A DNA stretch of 64,000 bases from Marivivens sp. LCG002 (GTDB lineage: Bacteria > Pseudomonadota > Alphaproteobacteria > Rhodobacterales > Rhodobacteraceae), in NCBI RefSeq assembly GCF_030264275.1, contig NZ_CP127165.1, positions 1,662,001 through 1,726,000 on the forward strand, read 5' to 3'. This document shows, piece after piece, positions 37,537 to 48,675 of this stretch (the first letter of the stretch is position 1; every line of letters begins with the position of its first letter). The notes under the pieces are model-generated. The model worked only from the letters and a program-made list of their open reading frames with translations, searched no databases and was not told where the DNA came from. The position numbers were made by a program, and so were the translations under genes.

Positions 37537-39687
37537 TCAGAACTGGCCGATCGACCAGAAGAAGGTCTCGCCCGAGCTGTCATCGACGCCATCGTTGTCG
37601 GTCGACATCCAGATCGTGCCGTCCTCCATGATCGCCATGCCTTCGATCTTGTCCACGATATAGCCGCCTTGGGCCGCCAGATCGGGGATCAGGTCATGAA
37701 CAACCTCTTTGGTCACGACGGGTAGCTCGCCGCCAAGGGTGGCAGGCACCATCTCGGAGAGCGCAACGCGAGTCACTTGCTTGATCTTGGCCGCAGCCCC
37801 GATCTGATTGTCGCGCTCGATCAGGTAAACATAGTCACCGTGCACCTGAATTTCCGACAGACCGATCCAGCCCGCTTCAACAGCGTCGAGCGGATAGAGC
37901 ACAGCGCCCCATTCCTTCGTATCGGTGTTATAGGCAACGAGCTTGGTGAAACCTGCGGCGTCATCTGCCCATTCGCGCTGAACCGCCATCCAGAGGGTGT
38001 CGCCGACTTTGGTGATCCCCTCAAAGCCGAAACGGGTCTCGACAGCCAGAAGCTCGGCGGGAAGCGCGATCTCTTCCTTGATCTCACCTTTTGAATTCAC
38101 ATGCAGGAGTGCATGGGGGACAAGGCGGTCGGTGCGGCCTTCGGAGGCGATCCAGTAGCCGCCCTCGCCATCAAGGGTGATGCCTTCCATATCGAGTTTT
38201 TGTGCCGCATGACCTGCGCGGGTGACATCGGTCGCCGCGATGATGCGGGCGGGCGTTTGCGACGGATCGATGGTGAAGATACGCGGTTGGAAGCCGTAGA
38301 AGCTATCGTTAACCGCATAGATCATACCGTTTTCATCGGCGACCATGCCAGAGATCGCCCCCCAGCCGATGAGCTCGTCTGCCCCTTCCGAGGTCAGTTG
38401 CGGATAGGCGGCGGGAGCATCCTGAAGCTCGTAGATCATGACATGGGCGCGCGCGCCCCCATCTTCGCCAAGATCAACCTCGTTCGCGGTAGCCAGAAGC
38501 CCGCGCTTGGGAATGGCAATCGCACCCTCGGGCGAAATTCCCGAAGGCAGCACCTGTTTAAACACTGGGTTTGCAGCATCGGTCACATCGTAAACCGAAA
38601 TGGTTGAAGCGCGCTCAGAGAGGATGAAGGCATAGGTCACTTCTCCGAATTTGGCGATTTCCATGCCCTCAGGCTCTACGCCTTTGGCGTCCGAACGTTT
38701 GTCGGGATAGTGGCCTGCCTGAATGATCGGAGTTTCAAAGGCATTGCCCGACTCCCAAACCAGCGTGCCGTCTTTGTGGAAGACAGTGATCGAACGCGAC
38801 CCGCCGTCCATGTCGCCTTCGTTGGCGATCATCACTTGGTCGTTGTCGATCCACTGAAGCCCATCGGGCTCACGAAGACGTGCGGGCTGGCTTTCGGTAA
38901 AGACCAAGGCGCCACGCTCGTCCGTAGCGTCTATGCCTTCAAGATCGACACTGCCTGCCGAGAACTGGCTCTGGACGGAACCGTCAGCATTCAGAACGAT
39001 AATGGCATTGTTTTCCTGAAGCGTTACGGCGATCTCGCCGTTGGCATTCACGTCGACAAACTCGGGCTCGGGATCTTCAGGAGCAATCTCGGTGAGACCC
39101 GTGACGTCGATTTTCTTGAGCGTGGCGCAGTCCATGGCCTCATTCGCGATGCCGACGGTGACCATATAACCAGCAGGCTGTTGCCCGACACGGCCGTTGC
39201 CGAAATCTTCGTCGCGCTCGTTCTCGATGGCGACGACGACCGTATCGCCCGCGTCGGTGTGTGCGGTCGAGTCAGGCTGTCCACCAAGATCGCATTCGCC
39301 CATGATCGAACCATCAGCCAGATTGACCGAAACGAGCTTGCCCGAGGGGTTGGTATAGGATTCCGAAGTATTGACGCCCACAAAGGCGGTATTTCCGATC
39401 ACGGTGACAGAGGTCGGCTCGCCCTCCAAAGCGACACTGCCTTTTGCCTTGGGCGCCTTGGGATCGGTGATATTGATAAGGCCGACGACGCCAAGCGGGC
39501 TATCGGTATAGACAAGGGTCATACCATCATCCGAGGCCGCGATGATCTCGGCAGAGGATTGAGCCGTTTGGTCTGCATTGTTGAGCGGGGTCGCAAAAGA
39601 GGAAATACGGTTGAAGTTCATCTCGGCCATCGCTTGACCGGCGGCCAACGCAAGGATCGAAGTCAAACAAACGGACTTGAAGGTCAT
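37537..39687 (-). CDS. secreted esterase-like activity of phytase family protein
   Basis: 716 residues with a Sec signal peptide (cleavage after AGQAMA). The N-terminal half (about 30-440) reads as a YVTN/choice-of-anchor-like beta-propeller (GEPTSVTVIGNTAFVGV, EPDGLQWIDNDQVMIANEGD, EGMEIAKFG). The C-terminal third (about 450-716) matches the phytase-like esterase domain PF13449, with KLDMEGITLDGEGGYWIASEG and FGFEGITKVGDTLWMAVQ. Likely periplasmic or extracellular, possibly acting on organophosphates, but neither activity nor metal ligands can be assigned with confidence. Confidence 0.85.
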   Translation of the reverse strand: MTFKSVCLTSILALAAGQAMAEMNFNRISSFATPLNNADQTAQSSAEIIAASDDGMTLVYTDSPLGVVGLINITDPKAPKAKGSVALEGEPTSVTVIGNTAFVGVNTSESYTNPSGKLVSVNLADGSIMGECDLGGQPDSTAHTDAGDTVVVAIENERDEDFGNGRVGQQPAGYMVTVGIANEAMDCATLKKIDVTGLTEIAPEDPEPEFVDVNANGEIAVTLQENNAIIVLNADGSVQSQFSAGSVDLEGIDATDERGALVFTESQPARLREPDGLQWIDNDQVMIANEGDMDGGSRSITVFHKDGTLVWESGNAFETPIIQAGHYPDKRSDAKGVEPEGMEIAKFGEVTYAFILSERASTISVYDVTDAANPVFKQVLPSGISPEGAIAIPKRGLLATANEVDLGEDGGARAHVMIYELQDAPAAYPQLTSEGADELIGWGAISGMVADENGMIYAVNDSFYGFQPRIFTIDPSQTPARIIAATDVTRAGHAAQKLDMEGITLDGEGGYWIASEGRTDRLVPHALLHVNSKGEIKEEIALPAELLAVETRFGFEGITKVGDTLWMAVQREWADDAAGFTKLVAYNTDTKEWGAVLYPLDAVEAGWIGLSEIQVHGDYVYLIERDNQIGAAAKIKQVTRVALSEMVPATLGGELPVVTKEVVHDLIPDLAAQGGYIVDKIEGMAIMEDGTIWMSTDNDGVDDSSGETFFWSIGQF

Positions 39688-40313: not shown

Positions 40314-40916
40314 CTAGACGCTCAGCACCCGCTTTCCGATCAAATGACCAATAGCGCCGCTGACCACAATCCCGGCCGTATACCAAAGAAGATAAAAGGC
40401 AGGTGCATCTTCAACGCAGTGCACCGCATAGATCGAGGCCGAAACCGCCCCTGCAAAGAGCCCAGTGAGAAAGCCGCGCTCGGCGGCAAAGGGTTCGACG
40501 CGATGGCGAAGGCCTGCAAACATCAGCCCGATAACGGGGAGCGCAAGCAGCGGGATCGAAACGAAACAGGCGAGCGCCGTCTGCCCCATCGGATCGCCGC
40601 CCATTGCAGCAGCGCCGCCCCACAGGACCGCAATCGCCGTGCCCGTAATCCAGAGGGGGCGCATATTTGCCCGCTCTCCGACGGGTGCACGCGTCAAAAG
40701 CCGCGTAAGCCCCACCAAGACAAACAACGTAAAGAAATGTTTGGCCTGAACGGGACCTGCTTTCAAAGCATCGATCAAATCGGGGCGCAGCCCGTAAAGA
40801 ACCAACACCAAAACAACCGTGCACAGCGCTCCAATCACCGCACGAGCGATCAAACGAGGCCGCTTTGCAGGGGTCGCATCGGCAGCAAGGGCTGCAATCA
40901 GCTCATCGGTTTCCAT
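40314..40916 (-). CDS. nrsF: NrsF (DUF1109) membrane anti-sigma factor
   Basis: 200 residues with six membrane helices. NrsF holds SigF at the membrane until heavy-metal or oxidant stress. C117 (in LACFVS) and C167 (in VHCVED) are exactly 50 residues apart, the same spacing as the two conserved cysteines reported to matter in Caulobacter NrsF, which suggests the same metal- or redox-sensing mechanism. It overlaps sigF by 19 bp and is divergent, as a pair, from the bufferin operon. Confidence 0.9.
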   Translation of the reverse strand: METDELIAALAADATPAKRPRLIARAVIGALCTVVLVLVLYGLRPDLIDALKAGPVQAKHFFTLFVLVGLTRLLTRAPVGERANMRPLWITGTAIAVLWGGAAAMGGDPMGQTALACFVSIPLLALPVIGLMFAGLRHRVEPFAAERGFLTGLFAGAVSASIYAVHCVEDAPAFYLLWYTAGIVVSGAIGHLIGKRVLSV

Positions 40917-41455
40917 TCTTCGTCCTTTCGTGCCATGTCGGCCAGCCGTCTGAGCGCGCGGTGCAAAGCCACGCGCATCGCTCCGGGTGCCATACCGAAT
41001 TTGGTCGAGAGTGTTTCGGCATCAAGCCCCTCGACTGCATGTCCCCTTACCAAAGCGGCATCCTTCTCCGAAAGCCGCGCGAGGGCCTGTTCCAGATGCA
41101 AGCCTGCAAGCGGGTCGCTCGTTTGCGCCCCGATGTCTGCATGATCATCGATAGGCTCATGGGGCGCACTACTGCGCACCATACGCACTAGATCGATCGC
41201 CTTGTGCTTGACGATGATCCGCACCCACGGGAGCAAAGGACGGGTCTGGTCCCAGCTGCCGCGTTTGAGGTGGATGGAAAGCAAAGCTTCCTGCACCACA
41301 TCCTCGACAAGGTTTGCATGAACAAAGGCAAGGTCCCGCCGCGCCATCGCACGCATGCGAGGCGCGAGAAGCGAAAGACATTGGGCATAGGCACGGCGGT
41401 CTCCCACCAGCCCTTTGCGCATCAAATCTTCGATCTCGTGATCTTGCGTTGTCAT
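40898..41455 (-). CDS. sigF: ECF sigma factor SigF
   Basis: 185-residue ECF sigma factor. Sigma-2 region (VEDVVQEALLSIHLKRGSW with the core-binding helix) and sigma-4 region (EGLDAETLSTKFGMAPGAMRVALHRALRRLA) are clear. Gene order sigF-nrsF and the divergent bufferin genes match the Caulobacter SigF system, which responds to copper, chromate and cadmium. A GTAAC-N-CGAA promoter stands before the divergent operon; I see no matching promoter before sigF itself. Confidence 0.9.
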   Translation of the reverse strand: MTTQDHEIEDLMRKGLVGDRRAYAQCLSLLAPRMRAMARRDLAFVHANLVEDVVQEALLSIHLKRGSWDQTRPLLPWVRIIVKHKAIDLVRMVRSSAPHEPIDDHADIGAQTSDPLAGLHLEQALARLSEKDAALVRGHAVEGLDAETLSTKFGMAPGAMRVALHRALRRLADMARKDEEWKPMS

Positions 41456-41545
41456 ACCTCTCTATACGCGAGGAAGGAGGCCCGCGTTACACAAGGTTCG
41501 AATTATTTCAGTTTCAGCCCGAGCTTTCACACTAAAGCGAGCGGC

Positions 41546-41571
41546 GTAACAAATCGCGCCCCCTTTGCGAA
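41546..41571 (+). promoter_or_regulatory. SigF-type ECF promoter of the bufferin operon
   Basis: GTAACA (41546-41551), 16 bp, then CGAA (41568-41571). This agrees with the GTAAC / CGAA elements described for SigF promoters in Caulobacter. The precursor ATG is 48 bp downstream. Confidence 0.7.
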
Positions 41572-41619
41572 AGCCTTGATGCAGACGATGAGATCTGCCT
41601 CAAAACCGGAGACTGAAGA

Positions 41620-41925
41620 ATGACCGTTGATAAGAAAACCCTCACTCTTGCTGCTGTTGTCGCTGCGGGCCTTGCCCAAATGACGCTTCCCGCCCATGCC
41701 GCAGGTCAGGAAAAATGCTTTGGCGTCGCTCTTGCGGGCGAGAATGGCTGCGCCGCAGGCCCGGGCACCACTTGTGCAGGCACCTCCAAAGTCGACTATC
41801 AAGGCAATGCATGGACGCTGGTCCCCGAAGGCACCTGCGCTGAAATCGAACTCCCCGCGATGCAGGATGGCTCCCCGCGTATGGGCTCGCTCACCGAGCT
41901 TGACCGCGATCTCCCGCAGGCTTGA
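41620..41925 (+). CDS. bufA1: bufferin precursor, DUF2282 family (BufA1-like)
   Basis: 101 residues. A cleavable signal peptide (to about AHA, residue 27) precedes a core with four cysteines, C33, C44, C52 and C73, in the DUF2282 pattern ([33 protein letters not shown]). In described bufferins the inner cysteines are converted to thiooxazoles and the outer pair forms a disulfide, giving a periplasmic copper-binding peptide. Here the C-terminus continues for about 28 residues past the last cysteine. First gene after a SigF-type promoter; a strong hairpin separates it from the modifying enzyme. Confidence 0.9.
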
Positions 41926-41935
41926 TCCCGCAATT

Positions 41936-41961
41936 GCTGCGCGGGGATACCCCTGCGCAGC
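41936..41961 (+). other. hairpin between bufferin precursor and MNIO gene
   Basis: GCTGCGC-GGGG-ATA-CCCC-t-GCGCAGC: an 11-bp stem with a single bulged T and a 3-base loop, 10 bp after the precursor stop and 24 bp before the next start. No T-run, so probably an attenuation or mRNA-protection element raising precursor over enzyme. Confidence 0.75.
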
Positions 41962-41984
41962 GAACCCAATAGCCGGAGGTTCAC

Positions 41985-42824
41985 ATGCCCTTCACACAGC
42001 TTCCCCAAAGCGCAGGGGTCGGGTTCAAACCCGCCCATTACGATGATCTGACCGAGGCTGGCGCGGTGACATGGCTTGAGGTGCATGCCGAGAACTATAT
42101 GCTCGACGGTGGCCCGCGCCGCGCGATGATGGCCGAGCTGTCCGAACGGTTTGCGATATCCGCCCATGGCGTCGGGCTCTCTATCGGCGGTGAAGATCCG
42201 CTTGATCGCGACCATCTCAAGCGGCTCAAGGCGTTGATGGACTGGCTGAAGCCCGCGCAGTTTTCCGAGCATTTGGCGTGGTCCTCTCATGGCGGGGCCT
42301 ATCTCAATGACCTCCTGCCCCTTCCCTATACCAAGGCCACGCTTGAAACCGTCTCTGCGCATATCAGCGAGGTTCAAGATGTTTTGGGGCGGCGTATGCT
42401 TCTTGAAAACCCCTCAAGTTATCTCTCGTTCACCGAAAGCACGCTCTCCGAGACCGATTTTCTGGGCGAAGTGGCCCATCGCACCGGCTGCGGGATGCTT
42501 CTCGACATCAACAATGTCTTTGTTTCCGCGACCAATCTTCGCCTCTCGGCTGAAGCCTATCTCGAGGCCTATCCAATTGAACATGTGGGCGAGATACATC
42601 TTGCTGGTCATCATGCCCAAGAGATCGAGGGCGGCACGCTTTTGATCGACAGCCACGGGAGCGAAGTCGCCGATCCTGTCTGGACGCTGTATGAGCGCAC
42701 CATCACCAAGATCGGCCCGCGCCCAACTCTGATCGAATGGGACAACGACGTGCCCGATTTCGCAACGCTGGAGCGCGAAGCGGCGCGGGCGAATACGATC
42801 TTGCAAAGACGGGTTGCCGCATGA
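41985..42824 (+). CDS. bufB1: multinuclear non-heme iron oxidase, DUF692 (BufB1-like)
   Basis: 279-residue TIM-barrel MNIO, of the same family as MbnB of methanobactin synthesis, that oxidises cysteines of the precursor peptide. Candidate iron ligands are visible in order: LEVHAENYM, SAHGVGLS, FSEHLAWS, LLENPSSY, LLDINNVFV, EIHLAGHH, DSHGSEV and LIEWDND. Cytoplasmic. A CCGGAGG site precedes the ATG. Its stop overlaps the partner gene by ATGA. Confidence 0.93.
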   Translation: MPFTQLPQSAGVGFKPAHYDDLTEAGAVTWLEVHAENYMLDGGPRRAMMAELSERFAISAHGVGLSIGGEDPLDRDHLKRLKALMDWLKPAQFSEHLAWSSHGGAYLNDLLPLPYTKATLETVSAHISEVQDVLGRRMLLENPSSYLSFTESTLSETDFLGEVAHRTGCGMLLDINNVFVSATNLRLSAEAYLEAYPIEHVGEIHLAGHHAQEIEGGTLLIDSHGSEVADPVWTLYERTITKIGPRPTLIEWDNDVPDFATLEREAARANTILQRRVAA

Positions 42825-43555
42825 GCCTTCAATCCAGTTTTGCAAGGGCGGTTCTAAGGCCCGAGGCCGAGACGCCCACCCCTCTCACCGCGCCTGACGA
42901 GCGGACAGTTGCCACGCGGTTCAACGTCTATCGCAACAATGTGACCGTCTCGCTGGTTGAAAGCCTGACAGAGGCCTTTCCCGTCATTGCCAAACTTGTC
43001 GGCGAGAACTTCTTTACCGCCATGGCCCGCGAGTTCGTGAGGAACCATCCCCCCGCCTCTCCTGTCATGGCTTTCTATGGCGATGCCTTTCCCGATTGGA
43101 TCGCGGGTTTCCCCCCCGCGGCATCCCTCCCTTATCTGGGCGAGGTCGCGAGGATCGAGCAGGCACGGCGCGAAGCCTATCATGCAGCCGACGCGCAACC
43201 CTTTGCGATCGAGAGGCTCTCAGAGGTCCCACCCGAAGATCTGCCGCTATTGCGCTTCGGTCTGCATCCCTCAGTGCGCTTTGTGACAACGCGGCACCCC
43301 GCTTTGGCCATTTGGGCGCGCAATTCGCAGGCCGCACATTTGATCGATGCCCCTGCGGGCGAGGTTTTGATCACGCGGCCCTACTGGACCCTGATTATGA
43401 ACGCAGCGCCAAGCGGCACTATCGCCGCCCTCAGCGCCCTTGGGCAAGGCAGATCTCTTGGAGAGGCACTGGGCGATATCGATGACGCCCCGTCCATACT
43501 TGCCACCCTCTTTTCATCAGGCGCAGTTGTCGAAAGGACCTCGAACCATGAATGA
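42821..43555 (+). CDS. bufC1: DUF2063 (HvfC/BufC) putative DNA-binding-fold partner protein
   Basis: 244 residues. The N-terminal DUF2063 part (FARAVLRPE, ATRFNVYRNNVTVSLVESLTEAFPVIAKLVGENFF) is followed by a second helical region. These proteins partner the MNIO and help recognise the precursor (RiPP recognition element-like role, from work on related systems). I start at the ATG overlapping the bufB1 stop, with frame upstream being bufB1 read out of frame. It overlaps the DoxX gene by 8 bp. Confidence 0.9.
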   Translation: MSLQSSFARAVLRPEAETPTPLTAPDERTVATRFNVYRNNVTVSLVESLTEAFPVIAKLVGENFFTAMAREFVRNHPPASPVMAFYGDAFPDWIAGFPPAASLPYLGEVARIEQARREAYHAADAQPFAIERLSEVPPEDLPLLRFGLHPSVRFVTTRHPALAIWARNSQAAHLIDAPAGEVLITRPYWTLIMNAAPSGTIAALSALGQGRSLGEALGDIDDAPSILATLFSSGAVVERTSNHE

Positions 43556-44117
43556 ACCGAACCCAGCACTTTTGACAAAAGTCTTTGGCCTTTTGCGCCG
43601 TATCGAGGAGACCGAACTTCCGCGCGGCGTGGGTCTCCTTGGATTGGGAACCCGCCTCGTCTTTGCTTCGGTGCTTTTGCGGTTCTTCTGGTCGTCCGCG
43701 CTCACCAAGATCGACGGCTTCGGCCTTTCTCTCAACGCCTATGCCCAGATTTTCCCGCGCAAGATGGAGGCTTTGGGCTATGATCCGAGCCAGCTTGCAG
43801 CGCCCTATCACTTTATTGCCGCATTCGGCACGATCGCCGAGTTCGTCCTTCCGCTCTTTATTTTGATCGGGCTCTTCACTCGCCTTTCTTCACTGGCAAT
43901 GATCGGATTTATCGGTGTGATGACGCTCACCGATATCTATGGCCACGGACTGACTGCTGAAACGATTGGAAGCTTCTTCAACCGCTTTCAGGATGAAGTC
44001 ATTGCGGACCAAAGGTTGCTTTGGGTCTGGATGCTGATCGTCCTCGGCGTCACTGGGGGTGGAAAGATTGCCGTCGATCGCCTCTTGTTCCCCCAGCCGC
44101 GAGAATCCGCAAAGTGA
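43548..44117 (+). CDS. DoxX family membrane protein
   Basis: 189 residues with four membrane helices; DoxX fold segments include FFWSSALTKIDGF, FAVAAFGTIAEFVLPLFILIG-like stretches and MTLTDIYGHG. DoxX proteins accompany bufferin and other DUF692 operons and are thought to carry electrons or assist oxidation at the membrane. Start at MNEPNPALL, 8 bp inside the DUF2063 gene, so translation is coupled. Confidence 0.9.
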   Translation: MNEPNPALLTKVFGLLRRIEETELPRGVGLLGLGTRLVFASVLLRFFWSSALTKIDGFGLSLNAYAQIFPRKMEALGYDPSQLAAPYHFIAAFGTIAEFVLPLFILIGLFTRLSSLAMIGFIGVMTLTDIYGHGLTAETIGSFFNRFQDEVIADQRLLWVWMLIVLGVTGGGKIAVDRLLFPQPRESAK

Positions 44118-44167
44118 TCCAGAACCAAGGACGCAGCGTAAAGAGAGAAAGAACAAAGGACCGCATT

Positions 44168-44746
44168 ATGCGCTTTCTCGCTGCCACTCTCGCCATTCTC
44201 CTTGCAACAACCGCTTCGGCCCATGCGCCCGTGATCAACAACGGCCAAGCGCCAATGACAGTCGACGCCCCCTATGTCGTCGAAAACCCCGAGCATTCCA
44301 AAGCCATCTTTTCCGAGTTGACCGGCGCGCCGCAGTTCTATCGGATCGACTCCGATGTCGACTTCAAGTTTTATACGGGTCTGACCGCGCCCAAACTTGA
44401 GGGCTGCGGCCTCAAAGAAACCTTTGACCTTGAGGTGCTGGATCAGGATCTCAAAAAGATCGACGAACGCAAAGGCAACAGCGCCGAGTGGTGGGCGTGG
44501 TATGAGGAATACGGCAAGACCTGGTATTGGGTCGGCCCAGAAATCGGCAAGGATTTCCTCTCTGACCGTATCTATCCTGCGGGCACCTATTACATCAAAG
44601 TTTCGAACGCTTCGAACTCGGGCAAATATGCCCTTGTGGTCGGGGATGAGGAAAAATTTGGCTTCGGCACAATCGCGGGCATGGTGCTCAACAATACCAT
44701 GGGCAAAATCCGCGACGGCTGGTGGGACGAGGCCGACTGTAACTAA
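44168..44746 (+). CDS. secreted protein, PPC-domain-like, last gene of the bufferin operon
   Basis: 192 residues with a clear Sec signal peptide (ends ASAHA). The mature protein has two cysteines (GCGLKET and the C-terminal ADCN), many aromatic residues (WWAWYEEYGKTWYW), and a PPC-like beta-sandwich ending AGTYYIKVSNASNSGKYALVVGD. It lies 50 bp after the DoxX gene. I know of no assigned role; carriage or stabilisation of the metallophore in the periplasm is a guess. Confidence 0.75.
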   Translation: MRFLAATLAILLATTASAHAPVINNGQAPMTVDAPYVVENPEHSKAIFSELTGAPQFYRIDSDVDFKFYTGLTAPKLEGCGLKETFDLEVLDQDLKKIDERKGNSAEWWAWYEEYGKTWYWVGPEIGKDFLSDRIYPAGTYYIKVSNASNSGKYALVVGDEEKFGFGTIAGMVLNNTMGKIRDGWWDEADCN

Positions 44747-44752
44747 GGCGTC

Positions 44753-45487
44753 TTAGCCCAAATCGATATCCGGTAGGCTGTCGAAGGCTGACTTTAAGGC
44801 ATGCCCCCAACCTTCTGATATCGTTTTGAAATACGCGTCATCTGCGCCGATCCTACGGCGCAGACCAGTGGACAGGATATCTGTTTCGTAGGTCTGAAGA
44901 TCAAGCGGCAAACCAACAGATAGATTGGCCTTGATCGTCGAGTCAAAGCTCACAAGCAAGAGCTTGACCGCTTGCTCCCAGCTCATGTCGGGATCATAGG
45001 CCCGCACGAGAATAGGCCGACCGTATTTGGTCTCGCCGATCTGGATAAAGGGCGTGTCTACGCTCGCTTCGATAAAGTTGCCTTCGGGATAGACCATGAA
45101 GAGACGCGGCTCGCCGCCGTTGATCTGCCCGCCGACGATCACCGTGGCGTTAAAGGTGGCATCGGCTCTCTGCCCCACATCAGCGTTGCGCATGATCACT
45201 TCGCGGAGCGTATCACCTACCAGACGCGCGACCTGAAACATCGATGGCACTTCGAGGATGGATGGCGCCCGTTCATCGGGGGCTTTGGTCCGCTCCTCGA
45301 GGATAGACATAAGCGCCTGCGTGGTGGCAAGGTTGCCCGCCGTCATCAGCGTGATGCAGCGCTCGCCTTCCTTTTCGAAGGTGAACATCTTGCGGAAGGT
45401 CGAGATATTATCGACGCCGGCATTGGTCCGAGTGTCCGACATAAAGATCAAACCACGGTTCAGCCGCATTCCAACGCAATATGTCAT
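44753..45487 (-). CDS. Anbu proteasome-like peptidase
   Basis: 244 residues of the Ntn-hydrolase proteasome family, ancestral beta-subunit type. After removal of Met1 the N-terminal nucleophile T2 is exposed (MTYCVGMRL), with D18 in FMSDTRTNAG and K33 in TFRKMF at the positions of the HslV catalytic residues. Anbu assembles into open helical particles. It is convergent with the bufferin operon (6 bp) and follows the transglutaminase gene by 9 bp on the minus strand, its usual company. Confidence 0.9.
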   Translation of the reverse strand: MTYCVGMRLNRGLIFMSDTRTNAGVDNISTFRKMFTFEKEGERCITLMTAGNLATTQALMSILEERTKAPDERAPSILEVPSMFQVARLVGDTLREVIMRNADVGQRADATFNATVIVGGQINGGEPRLFMVYPEGNFIEASVDTPFIQIGETKYGRPILVRAYDPDMSWEQAVKLLLVSFDSTIKANLSVGLPLDLQTYETDILSTGLRRRIGADDAYFKTISEGWGHALKSAFDSLPDIDLG

Positions 45488-45496
45488 TTCTTACGC

Positions 45497-46303
45497 CTAC
45501 TGTTGTTGCACCGAGAGCTGGACGTCCATGATCTCGGCGGCATTGCCAAATCGGGTTCCAGTTACAGGTGCAGCCTCGGCATAGTCCAGCCCCGATGCAA
45601 TGCGAACATAGCGTTTATCGGGGGAAATTCCGTTCGAAACGTCAAATCCCACCCATCCAAGCCCTTCGATAAAGGCTTCGGCCCAAGCATGTGTGGCATC
45701 TTGTTCCGTGCGATCATCCATCAAAAGATAACCCGAGATATAGCGCGCTGGCACATGTGCCAAACGACAGCAGGCAATAAAGATATGGGTGTGGTCCTGA
45801 CAGACGCCGTGCCCTGCTTTGGCGGCCTCTTCCGCGCTCCAATGCACCTCGGATTTGCCTGTCTCATAGGCAACCGCCGCGCGGATCACGGACGAAAGGC
45901 TATGGAGCCACTCAAGGCTACCCACTGCGCCCGTCGCCGCTTGCGTCAAGGCGCGGCAGACGTCGCCCGCTTTGGTGAGCGGTGTCTGCCTTTCAAAGAG
46001 CCACATGGGCGCAAAACCCTGATGGGGGCCAAGAACGCCGTGGGTTTCGCGAAGCGTGATGACACCCTCGCTCGTAAGAGTGACCTCGGCCACATCGGGG
46101 GCAAAGCTTACCAAGGTGACAAGATTGCAGTGATGATCGACATATTCTGCCTCGACCTGACCGCCATCAATGTCCAAGCTCCATGACTGCACCGTCTGAC
46201 CCGTAGTGTCCGTGGGTTTCAGTCGAAGTTGCAAAAGCGCATAGGGCACAGGGGCGTCATAGCGATAGCTGGTCCGATGTCTGATCGAGAGTGTCTGTGT
46301 CAT
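45497..46303 (-). CDS. transglutaminase-like cysteine protease family protein
   Basis: 268 residues: N-terminal bacterial transglutaminase-like domain (LSIRHRTSYRYDAPV) and the catalytic core with GVCQDHTHIFIACCR (Cys), ATHAWAEAFI (His) and GWVGFDVSNG (Asp). Start is the ATG overlapping the alpha-E stop by ATGA; the 67 further residues of the open frame are alpha-E sequence out of frame. Probably cleaves or forms isopeptide-type bonds in the pathway of this cluster. Confidence 0.92.
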   Translation of the reverse strand: MTQTLSIRHRTSYRYDAPVPYALLQLRLKPTDTTGQTVQSWSLDIDGGQVEAEYVDHHCNLVTLVSFAPDVAEVTLTSEGVITLRETHGVLGPHQGFAPMWLFERQTPLTKAGDVCRALTQAATGAVGSLEWLHSLSSVIRAAVAYETGKSEVHWSAEEAAKAGHGVCQDHTHIFIACCRLAHVPARYISGYLLMDDRTEQDATHAWAEAFIEGLGWVGFDVSNGISPDKRYVRIASGLDYAEAAPVTGTRFGNAAEIMDVQLSVQQQ

Positions 46304-47244
46304 TGATAGAACCGATAATCGACCTCGATTTGTTGGCCGAGTGCCGAATTTTCCTTGAGGAAGGTTTGGATGAATTCGTGAAGTCCTTTGTCGAGCACCT
46401 CGTCGATCCCCAGCCCGTTGACCTTTTGCGTGATCGCATCGCACATCTCGTGCGAGGGATGGCGCAACCCGTAATCGGAGGCCAGATAACCCAAGTTCGA
46501 GCAAATCTTGGCCGCGCAGAATGCAAGGCTTCGCGGCATTCTGCTATCGAGGATAAGAAACTGGCAGATCTCGCGGGCACGCGGCTCTTGGCCATATGCC
46601 ATCTGGAAACCGCCCTCGCCTGATACGGACCGAAGGATCGTTTGCCATTGCACATTGTCGAGAGACGAGCCCACCGCTGCGACCGAGGGCAAAAGGACGT
46701 AATACTTCACATCGAGGATCCGCGCAGTGTTGTCGGCTCGCTCCATAAAGGTGCCGATCCGTGCAAAGTTGAAAATGTCGTTGCGCAGCATAGTCCCATG
46801 CAAGGCCCCTCGCACAAAGGCACTCTTCTGACGGATGAGAAGCAAGACATGCGGAAGATCACGCTCTTGCACCTTGCGGGCCAGGGCCTCTTTGAGCGAC
46901 ATCCAGCAATCATTGACCGCCTCCCAGACCTCTCGGGTCAAAGCGGTGCGCACGGTCTTGGCGTTACTGCGGGCCGCGTCAATCGCATTGAGAACGCTTG
47001 ACGGGTTGGCCCGATCACGCAGCATCCAGTCGATCGCGGTTTCGCGGGTCACAACACCGTCATAGACGGCGTTATAGCCCTCAAGCACGGCTGTCGTTTG
47101 CAGAATGCTGGTCCATTCCTCGTCGGTCGATCCCGACCGCGTCAGGGCAATGCGAAGCCCCGCTTCGATCAAGCGCGCTGTATTTTCGGATCGCTCAAGA
47201 TAGCGGAACATCCAGAAGAGACCGCCTGCGGTTTTTCCAAGCAT
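46300..47244 (-). CDS. alpha-E domain protein
   Basis: 314 residues, nearly all alpha-helical, of the bacterial alpha-E family: AGGLFWMFRYLERSENTARLIEAGLRI at the start, FARIGTFMERADNTARILDVKYY in the middle. The two ER-(S/A)-ENTAR-like repeats indicate a duplicated helical unit. It always travels with circularly permuted ATP-grasp ligases and is taken to be an adaptor. It lies 3 bp after the ATP-grasp gene and overlaps the transglutaminase gene. Confidence 0.92.
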   Translation of the reverse strand: MLGKTAGGLFWMFRYLERSENTARLIEAGLRIALTRSGSTDEEWTSILQTTAVLEGYNAVYDGVVTRETAIDWMLRDRANPSSVLNAIDAARSNAKTVRTALTREVWEAVNDCWMSLKEALARKVQERDLPHVLLLIRQKSAFVRGALHGTMLRNDIFNFARIGTFMERADNTARILDVKYYVLLPSVAAVGSSLDNVQWQTILRSVSGEGGFQMAYGQEPRAREICQFLILDSRMPRSLAFCAAKICSNLGYLASDYGLRHPSHEMCDAITQKVNGLGIDEVLDKGLHEFIQTFLKENSALGQQIEVDYRFYQ

Positions 47245-47247
47245 GAC

Positions 47248-48675
47248 TTACTCCTCCAGAACCCAAGTGTCTTTGGTCCCGCCGCCCTGAGACGAGTTGA
47301 CCACAAGGCTGCCCTTTTTAAGCGCAACCCGCGTGAGACCACCCGGTGTGATGTCGATACGGTCAGGGCTGACAAGGACAAAGGGGCGAAGATCGACGTG
47401 TCGAGGAGCAAGACCCGCTTTGGTAAAGATCGGCACCGTCGAAAGTGACAGCGTGGGCTGGGCGATATAGTTCGCAGGCCGCGCCTTGAGCTTGCGGCGG
47501 AAAGCTTCGATCTCTTTCTTGGTGGCGGTGGGACCGATAAGCATCCCGTAACCGCCCGATCCATGCACCTCTTTGACCACGAGTTCAGAGAGATTATCGA
47601 GCACATAGGCTAGACTGTCCGCTTCGCTGCACCGCCATGTGGGCACGTTCTGAAGGATCGCCTTTTCACCAGTGTAGAACTCGACGATATCGGGCATGTA
47701 GCTATAAATCGCCTTGTCGTCCGCAATCCCTGTTCCGGGAGCGTTGGCGATGGTGATCCCGCCCGCCTTGTAGACATCCATGATCCCAGGCACACCGAGC
47801 TGGCTGTTGGGATTGAAGTTCAGCGGATCAAGGAAGTTGTCGTCGACGCGGCGGTAAAGCACGTCAATCGCCTTATACCCTTGGGTCGTGCGCATCGCGA
47901 CGCGGCCGTCGATCACCCGAAGGTCGTTTCCTTCGACAAGTTCGACCCCCATCTTGTCGGCAAGAAAGCTGTGCTCGTAATAGGCCGAGTTGTGAATACC
48001 GGGGGTAAGGACCGCGACCGTTGGCTTGTCCCCTGCCATATCGGGTGCACAGGCCGCAAGCGACCGACGGAGCATCTTGGGATAGTTGGAGACCGGCATC
48101 ACCCGCGTCTTGGCGAAGAGCTCCGGGAACATCTGGAGCATCGTCTCGCGGTTTTCGAGCATATAGCTCACGCCCGAGGGTGTTCGAGCGTTGTCCTCAA
48201 GCACAAAGAACTCGTCTGGTCCTGTGCGCACAAGGTCGATGCCGACGATATGGGTATAGACACCTCCCGCAGGATTGACGCCCATCATCTGAGGAAGGAA
48301 AGCTTCGTTCTTGGCGATCATTTCCGCAGGGATACGCCCTGCTTTGATGATTTCCTGACGGTGATAGATGTCGAAGAGAAATGCATTGATCGCACGCACC
48401 CTCTGCTCGATCCCGCGAGAAAGCCGCGCCCACTCACGGCCCGATATGATACGCGGCACGATGTCGAAAGGGATCAAACGCTCGGACGCTTCGGCACGTC
48501 CATAGACGTTGAAGGTAATCCCAGTGAGGCGGAAAAGATCCTCCGCCTCCCTTTGTTTTTTGCGCAATCGGCTTGGGTTTTCACTCTCAAACCAGGTGCT
48601 GAATTCGGCATAGGGCGCGCGGAGCGCATCGCCCCCAAGGCCGTTCATTTCATCGAAGATCTGCGGCTTTTCCAT
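47248..48675 (-). CDS. circularly permuted type 2 ATP-grasp protein
   Basis: 475 residues. ATP-grasp ligase with permuted order: the LTGITFNVYGRAEASERLIPFDIVPRIISG-type opening, the core DNARTPSGVSYMLENRE, and KEVHGSGGYGMLIGP near the end. Such ligases form peptide-like bonds with ATP. First gene of a four-gene minus-strand operon with alpha-E, transglutaminase and Anbu, a set predicted to build and process a peptide or peptide tag. Confidence 0.92.
   Translation of the reverse strand: MEKPQIFDEMNGLGGDALRAPYAEFSTWFESENPSRLRKKQREAEDLFRLTGITFNVYGRAEASERLIPFDIVPRIISGREWARLSRGIEQRVRAINAFLFDIYHRQEIIKAGRIPAEMIAKNEAFLPQMMGVNPAGGVYTHIVGIDLVRTGPDEFFVLEDNARTPSGVSYMLENRETMLQMFPELFAKTRVMPVSNYPKMLRRSLAACAPDMAGDKPTVAVLTPGIHNSAYYEHSFLADKMGVELVEGNDLRVIDGRVAMRTTQGYKAIDVLYRRVDDNFLDPLNFNPNSQLGVPGIMDVYKAGGITIANAPGTGIADDKAIYSYMPDIVEFYTGEKAILQNVPTWRCSEADSLAYVLDNLSELVVKEVHGSGGYGMLIGPTATKKEIEAFRRKLKARPANYIAQPTLSLSTVPIFTKAGLAPRHVDLRPFVLVSPDRIDITPGGLTRVALKKGSLVVNSSQGGGTKDTWVLEE

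Follow-up and report, generated by a model that had tools for sequence, protein, structure and literature searches.

Which signal and which regulator govern the bufferin-type operon of Marivivens sp. LCG002, and is its control typical of the family Rhodobacteraceae? The locus lies at positions 40314-44746 of a 64,000-nucleotide (nt) stretch of contig NZ_CP127165.1 (positions 1,662,001 to 1,726,000), the whole of which is referred to here as the window. It comprises genes for a peptide precursor, a maturation enzyme of the MNIO family with its partner protein, and a DoxX-family protein, and these diverge from genes for the sigma factor SigF and the putative anti-sigma factor NrsF. A first-pass annotation made from the letters alone had described this arrangement and likened it to the bufferin systems of Caulobacter. 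That observation was confirmed and its interpretation is supported in substance; we regard it as very probable that the locus is a SigF-NrsF-controlled Buf1 bufferin operon. The operon itself is known in kind. What this analysis adds is that the linkage to SigF is a minority state in the family and that most of the rest share a different operator; unexpectedly, the majority of related bacteria thus seem to regulate the same set of genes by other means.

Organization of the locus and its promoters

The features of the locus are as follows.

41465-41490, minus strand: SigF-type promoter of sigF-nrsF, GTAACGCGGGCCTCCTTCCTCGCGTA (GTAACG-N16-CGTA)
41546-41571, plus strand: SigF-type promoter of bufA, GTAACAAATCGCGCCCCCTTTGCGAA (GTAACA-N16-CGAA)
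40314-40916, minus strand: nrsF, putative membrane anti-sigma factor (PF06532, E 8.2e-32, 111.1 bits against a cut-off of 26.8)
40898-41455, minus strand: sigF, extracytoplasmic function (ECF) sigma factor (Sigma70_r4_2, 31.7 bits against 25.7; Sigma70_r2, 24.7 against 24)
41620-41925, plus strand: bufA, Buf1 (DUF2282) bufferin precursor of 101 amino acids (PF10048, E 1.2e-23, 83.3 bits against a cut-off of 22.4)
41985-42824, plus strand: bufB, MNIO bufferin maturase (PF05114, E 4.6e-104; NCBIfam NF050167 MNIO_BufB, 379.3 bits against a cut-off of 310)
42821-43555, plus strand: bufC, DUF2063 partner of the MNIO enzyme (PF09836, E 4.1e-26, 91.5 bits against a cut-off of 27.2)
43548-44117, plus strand: doxX, DoxX-family membrane protein (PF07681, 28.5 bits against a cut-off of 23.6)

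The genes, their order and overlaps, the promoter signatures and the conserved cysteines are established here by sequence. The four-cysteine DUF2282 precursor, the MNIO enzyme, the DUF2063 partner and the DoxX protein were all found where the first-pass annotation had put them, each passing its Pfam cut-off, and the divergence that it had claimed was evident from the placement of sigF-nrsF on the minus strand and bufABC-doxX on the plus strand. It had further spoken of one coupled operon. The reading frames of bufB and bufC overlap by 4 nt and those of bufC and doxX by 8 nt, which fits translational coupling, so that this description holds for bufB-bufC-doxX by their overlaps; 59 nt lie between bufA and bufB. 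On the opposite strand the nrsF and sigF frames overlap by 19 nt, and a gap of 164 nt separates sigF from bufA. The starts given for bufC, doxX and a sixth gene discussed below are later ATG codons, chosen within longer open frames that begin at 42737, 43440 and 44021. The proposed comparison of BufB with the MNIO families was borne out by its pass of the NCBIfam model; BufB also matches the solved DUF692 protein 3bww (best stretch residues 8-212, E 4.9e-41) and is the single MNIO match in a family search of the whole genome.

To place the locus within the family we drew on 149 genomes from 148 genera, nearly one genome per genus. The matches in this sample plus two further same-genus matches gave 110 bufferin loci from 107 genomes, that is, 109 stretches and the window. 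Gene orders were called with profiles grown from the window's proteins; where a contig end truncates a stretch, neighbouring genes may be missing from it.

Both of the opposed sites in the sigF-bufA gap carry the signature GTAAC-N17-CG[AT]A. The SigF signature reported for Caulobacter is GTAACC-N16-CGAA (PMC3511200), from which both window promoters differ in the sixth base and the sigF promoter also in one -10 base. The sigF promoter stops 9 nt short of the start codon chosen for sigF, which predicts a nearly leaderless transcript. When the spacing was allowed to vary (GTAAC-N16..18-CG[AT]A), the signature occurred upstream of bufA in 13 of the 16 loci with sigF or nrsF in the stretch and in 1 of 90 without, against expectations of 0.06 of 16 and 0.36 of 90 from shuffling by two-base-block permutation. 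On these counts SigF control of bufA is local. The exact N17 form was present in 10/16 SigF-linked loci and 0/91 loci without sigF. For the count at variable spacing, four of the 94 loci without a sigma gene were omitted, three for want of an adjacent bufA and one because its upstream stretch was too short. Of the 13 divergent loci, 11 have a SigF-type site directed at bufA and 12 have one directed at sigF, as judged with a looser pattern and no shuffle control. The sole signature-positive locus without sigF, L134 (genome G135), belongs to a genome with nrsF on another contig. Locus L145 has no SigF signature upstream of bufA, though its genome has NrsF elsewhere.

The residues expected of such a system are conserved. 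The four cysteines of BufA (Cys33, Cys44, Cys52 and Cys73) are kept in 109/109 sequences, with a spacing of 10-7-20 in 108 of them, the window's included; extra cysteines appear in 13/109, partly because the script picked far starts. The N-terminus of BufA is hydrophobic and ends in AHA-A, as read by eye. In BufB, residues H61, H96, E141, D174, N177, H205, D222 and H224 are retained in all 109 aligned rows. Cys117 and Cys167 of NrsF are each kept in 14 of 15 aligned rows, again including the window's, and lie 50 residues apart, the same spacing as C131 and C181 of Caulobacter NrsF, whose substitution is reported to raise expression of the regulon (PMC3511200). The claim of SigF-NrsF control is supported by the signatures at both divergent promoters and by the match of the two NrsF cysteines to Caulobacter.

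Comparison with known systems

The likeness to the Caulobacter bufferin system that had been proposed is well founded at the level of sequence, in that families, gene order, promoter signatures and NrsF cysteines agree. The SigF-NrsF Buf1 operon CC3252-CC3257 of Caulobacter crescentus/vibrioides has the same gene set and order as the window, the order being taken from the CC numbering and the legend of figure 2 in PMC3511200; it is described with the same promoter signature and equally spaced NrsF cysteines. The two differ in that Caulobacter has two SigF-controlled MNIO operons (PMC3511200), whereas the Marivivens genome has one MNIO gene, and in that the window has a sixth gene after doxX. 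The gig operons of Cupriavidus metallidurans and Legionella are termed bufferin gene clusters (PMC12452194), a likeness by description only. Captophorins, the thiooxazole metallophores of PMC13097082, employ an MNIO enzyme with a DUF2063 partner, as in the window, and the authors of that paper propose placing bufferins within them. The fontiphorin stretch in the same paper is of a repeated Lys-Cys kind, in contrast to the DUF2282 precursor of the window.

Proposed mechanism

The product of the operon is most likely a periplasmic copper-binding thiooxazole peptide, by analogy with characterized Buf1 systems; which metal acts as signal, how the peptide is modified and exported, and that it binds copper are inferred from Caulobacter. 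The following steps are proposed: (i) metal stress, with copper the most likely signal, would cause membrane-bound NrsF to free SigF by way of its two cysteines, (ii) the freed SigF would transcribe sigF-nrsF and bufABC-doxX from the two divergent promoters, (iii) BufB and BufC would convert the central cysteines of BufA, Cys44 and Cys52, to thiooxazoles, (iv) the outer cysteines, Cys33 and Cys73, would pair as a disulphide, and (v) the exported peptide would chelate copper in the periplasm. The retention of SigF by NrsF and its metal induction are established for Caulobacter and carried over here by homology, as are the formation of thiooxazoles and the chelation of copper. In Caulobacter, copper is reported to induce the SigF regulon and a sigF::Tn5 mutant to be copper-sensitive (PMC8224329), and Buf1 thiooxazoles are reported to chelate copper, with bufferins sequestering the metal in the periplasm (PMC12452194). 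The words "metallophore" and "secreted peptide" in the first-pass annotation, which suggest release for the uptake of metal, were accordingly dropped, bufferins being described in PMC12452194 as periplasmic copper buffers.

Several observations weigh against this reading. With regard to the signal, it was chromium and cadmium that first revealed the Caulobacter SigF regulon, which makes copper as the signal in the window organism an analogy. Caulobacter SigF is also reported not to be strongly autoregulated. Locus L119 is SigF-linked by its sigma gene, yet its genome lacks an NrsF match and there is no signature upstream of its bufA. The signature is not enriched across the Marivivens genome, its 22 sites being outnumbered by the 47 of the reversed pattern. 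In the family NrsF also occurs apart from bufferins: of the 23 genomes that have it, 6 lack an MNIO match. Lastly, four of the proteins fall below the relevant NCBIfam models: NrsF scores 84.6 bits against a cut-off of 300 for the equivalog NF042994, BufC 40.4 against 142 for NF050145 HvfC, DoxX 31.4 against 80 for NF050144 HvfX, and SigF 137.9 against 198 for its best sigma-factor model.

The response of Caulobacter SigF to chromium and cadmium also speaks for a rival explanation, that this is a bufferin system whose main signal or target is another metal, or oxidative or sulfur stress (chromate, cadmium, gold or silver), with copper secondary. The homologous gig operons were named for induction by gold, and a DoxX homologue has been linked to oxidative or sulphur stress (PMC12452194); the SigF signature before an exported methionine sulfoxide reductase gene in two SigF genomes, described below, would fit oxidative damage. 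Inactivation of sigF in Caulobacter, however, severely impaired growth with copper and left sensitivity to chromate and cadmium close to that of the wild type (PMC8224329), and copper is the metal that Buf1 thiooxazoles are reported to chelate (PMC12452194). We therefore judge this rival unlikely and retain a copper-binding Buf1 operon under SigF-NrsF.

Bufferin loci across the family

The first-pass annotation had noted that few MNIO systems have been characterised in Rhodobacteraceae. Such systems are not scarce in the family: an MNIO gene is present in 105/149 genomes, and it is only the SigF linkage that is uncommon. A sigF-like gene occurs in the stretch of 16/110 loci, 15 of them with nrsF, and 13 of the 16 are divergent as in the window; 87 of the 110 have the order bufA-bufB-bufC-doxX with neither sigF nor nrsF. 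SigF linkage is a minority arrangement of bufferin operons in the family. NrsF was detected in 23 of the 149 genomes, in 22 of them above the cut-off, and bufB in 3/7 genomes of the window's own genus.

In a quick BufB tree, from which L125 was omitted as too short (a stop lies inside its MNIO frame), 14 of the 16 SigF-linked rows fell within one group of 17 at a support of 86, below the starred level. The SigF label requires 5 changes on this tree, against 15.1 on average for shuffled labels; branches with good support impose no more than 2. BufB of the window pairs with that of L122, from another genus, at 75% identity and a support of 99, and is 62 and 58% identical to the two other copies from its own genus. 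Horizontal spread of the SigF-type operon is the simplest interpretation of these sequence relationships. The greater closeness to another genus's copy could also be taken to mean that the locus is a silent and functionless arrival by horizontal transfer; against this, none of its frames is interrupted, both promoter signatures are present, and conservation extends to all four cysteines of BufA and to the BufB positions listed above, and we consider such a relic highly improbable. A working operon under SigF-NrsF remains the preferred explanation.

A second wiring of the operon

The loci without sigF have a control region of their own. A spaced-word search identified upstream of bufA an operator with the core TnACG-N4-CGTGA-N2-CACG-N5-GTGA-N-T (L178 and L137 are examples). 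A further TnAC lies ten bases upstream of the core, the element is partly palindromic, and a TANNNT-like box follows, with A (50/75) and T (51/75) at 25 and 29 bases past the last core T. Scored with a leave-one-locus-out matrix at 15 bits or more, the operator is present in 73/90 loci without sigF and in 0/16 SigF loci; elsewhere in the stretches, amounting to 2.05 million strand-bases, it was found in 1 of 106 loci. At 5 bits the counts become 75/90, 1/16 (L116) and 12/106. The operator was found in the same loci in which it is counted, only the scored locus being left out, its 34-base frame and the 15-bit threshold were picked after looking at the data, and the shuffles were two-base-block permutations rather than strict dinucleotide shuffles. 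A hand-made pattern gave 63/94, and the matrix count is used instead. The exact core GTGANNCACNNNNNCGTGA has 25 sites in 25 genomes, picked mostly because they carry the element: 14 are bufA promoters scoring at least 32.6 bits, and 11 lie elsewhere and score at most 13.7. The Marivivens genome has zero exact GTGANNCACNNNNNCGTGA sites. In L129 the space between bufA and bufB holds a second strong copy of the operator, some 389 nt past the bufA start; this is the one high-scoring site elsewhere.

The distribution of thrS follows the same division. This gene adjoins the bufferin operon in 78/94 loci without sigF versus 1/16 with sigF. The thrS-linked operons share the bufABC-doxX core with the window and differ from it in that sigF or nrsF is in the stretch of only 1/79 and in the conserved operator upstream of bufA. 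No regulator gene was seen by eye among the 26 largest neighbour groups viewed. L134 is a thrS-linked operon that lacks the common operator and has a near SigF signature (N18); its control by SigF in trans is possible.

In the Marivivens genome itself, spx and csp come after thrS (L239) and no bufferin gene is among them; the single MNIO gene lies elsewhere. The same thrS-spx-csp arrangement lacking bufferin genes is found in G153 and G039, both of the SigF type, and in four same-genus genomes without MNIO (L240-L245). G152, of the same genus, has a thrS-linked bufferin operon. Most likely, the thrS-linked operon has disappeared from the Marivivens genome or was never present in it, and the SigF-wired form is there in its stead; a thrS-spx region without the operon, together with a sole bufferin locus of SigF type, suggests that one wiring replaced another. 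For the family as a whole, we lean slightly towards a picture in which the same copper-buffering operon is placed under two mutually exclusive controllers. The common, thrS-linked form would have a putative, possibly dedicated activator acting on an operator that spans about 41 bp and keeps a constant spacing to a -10-like box, and the minority SigF-NrsF cassette, the window's among them, would have replaced it, mostly at new genomic places.

A possible wider SigF regulon

A SigF regulon beyond the bufferin locus was tried as a candidate and rejected on the genome-wide counts of 22 and 47 given above, from which most of the other 20 SigF-like sites are expected by chance; 7 of the genes behind them were named. 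One of these sites lies 106 nt before a gene for an exported MsrB-type methionine sulfoxide reductase (SelR, E 1.3e-44; L014:882-1394) and, by eye, inside a fasciclin-like frame. The comparison covered 11 other genomes whose relative reaches 55% identity or more. In G077 (L259) the MsrB-type relative (55%) is clustered with nrsF and bufABC, and a SigF signature precedes the match by about 95 nt; G035, which has no local SigF, has a SigF-type site about 370 nt before its relative. No SigF-type site was seen near the relative in G006, G010 and G034, which are of the SigF type, or in G152, G106, G003, G052, G067 and G145. An MsrB-type gene as a SigF target would make sense, because Caulobacter SigF is reported to control the periplasmic repair system msrPQ (PMC8224329). 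In the Marivivens genome neither of the two Oxidored_molyb matches has a SigF signature within 1500 nt. It is possible that the MsrB-type gene is a SigF target, although the indications are too weak for such a claim.

The sixth gene and the flanking regions

The first-pass annotation had given the operon the span 40314-44746. The genes that it named all lie within 40314-44117, and the remaining end takes in one that it had left unnamed.

44168-44746, plus strand: sixth gene, probable exported beta-sandwich protein (at E 0.01, no model of Pfam or NCBIfam is matched)

Its product has 192 residues and, by eye, a plausible signal peptide ending before His19. We identified 35 relatives (L060-L094), by their titles mostly from proteobacteria and many from metagenome bins, and the gene is present in 3/149 family genomes, the window's included. 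His19 occurs in 35 of the 36 sequences, Cys80 in 36 and Cys191 in 34; the exception for His19 is L092, which matches only from residue 55, and His19 is invariant in the 27 of the 36 that were aligned. The structure model has a pLDDT of 88.3, and its best fold match is a collagenase collagen-binding domain (E 2.7e-05, TM by query length 0.43), to which the sequence profile matches at E 0.12.

The gene could be a functional member of the system, its product being exported and binding copper through a mature N-terminal histidine in concert with the bufferin. It starts 50 nt past doxX on the same strand with no terminator-like plus-strand site between them (predicted sites were at chance level), and the widely kept His19 directly follows the plausible signal-peptidase site. 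None of the 35 relatives' loci, however, holds a bufferin gene in the flank examined, which was short in some, and the window alone among the 110 bufferin loci has the sixth gene beside the operon. Nor is there a clear shared neighbour: among the 14 largest neighbour groups viewed, the gene itself set aside, one mixed and partly antisense group is found at 8/35 loci and the others at 4 or fewer. Conservation does not extend to a second histidine (His43 in 22/36), the fold matches are collagen-binding domains and, among the 50 matches listed, none is a copper protein by title. Participation in the bufferin system is thus quite unlikely. A copper histidine-brace protein, to which the conserved His19 had pointed, was likewise set aside, the idea being weakened by the want of a second invariant histidine, the fold and the lack of linkage. 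The sixth gene is probably a bystander, since its relatives are not linked to bufferins, and is perhaps co-transcribed with doxX.

Beyond the sixth gene, the minus strand at 44753-48675 encodes a proteasome-type protein (PF00227) and then three open reading frames, whose products we take, by eye, to resemble transglutaminase-like, alpha-E-like and ATP-grasp-like proteins. On the other side, 37537-39687 encodes a large esterase, predicted to be phytase-like and matching choice-of-anchor I, which is nearby and not evidently part of the bufferin system.

Implications

The operon of the window is a clean added member of the SigF-wired Buf1 class, and the comparison that it prompted matters more. 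Two things are worth following, the operator and the way in which the two wirings exclude each other; these two wirings of one operon amount to a natural experiment on copper sensing. Identifying the protein that binds the operator would reveal another way in which bacteria perceive that bufferins are needed.

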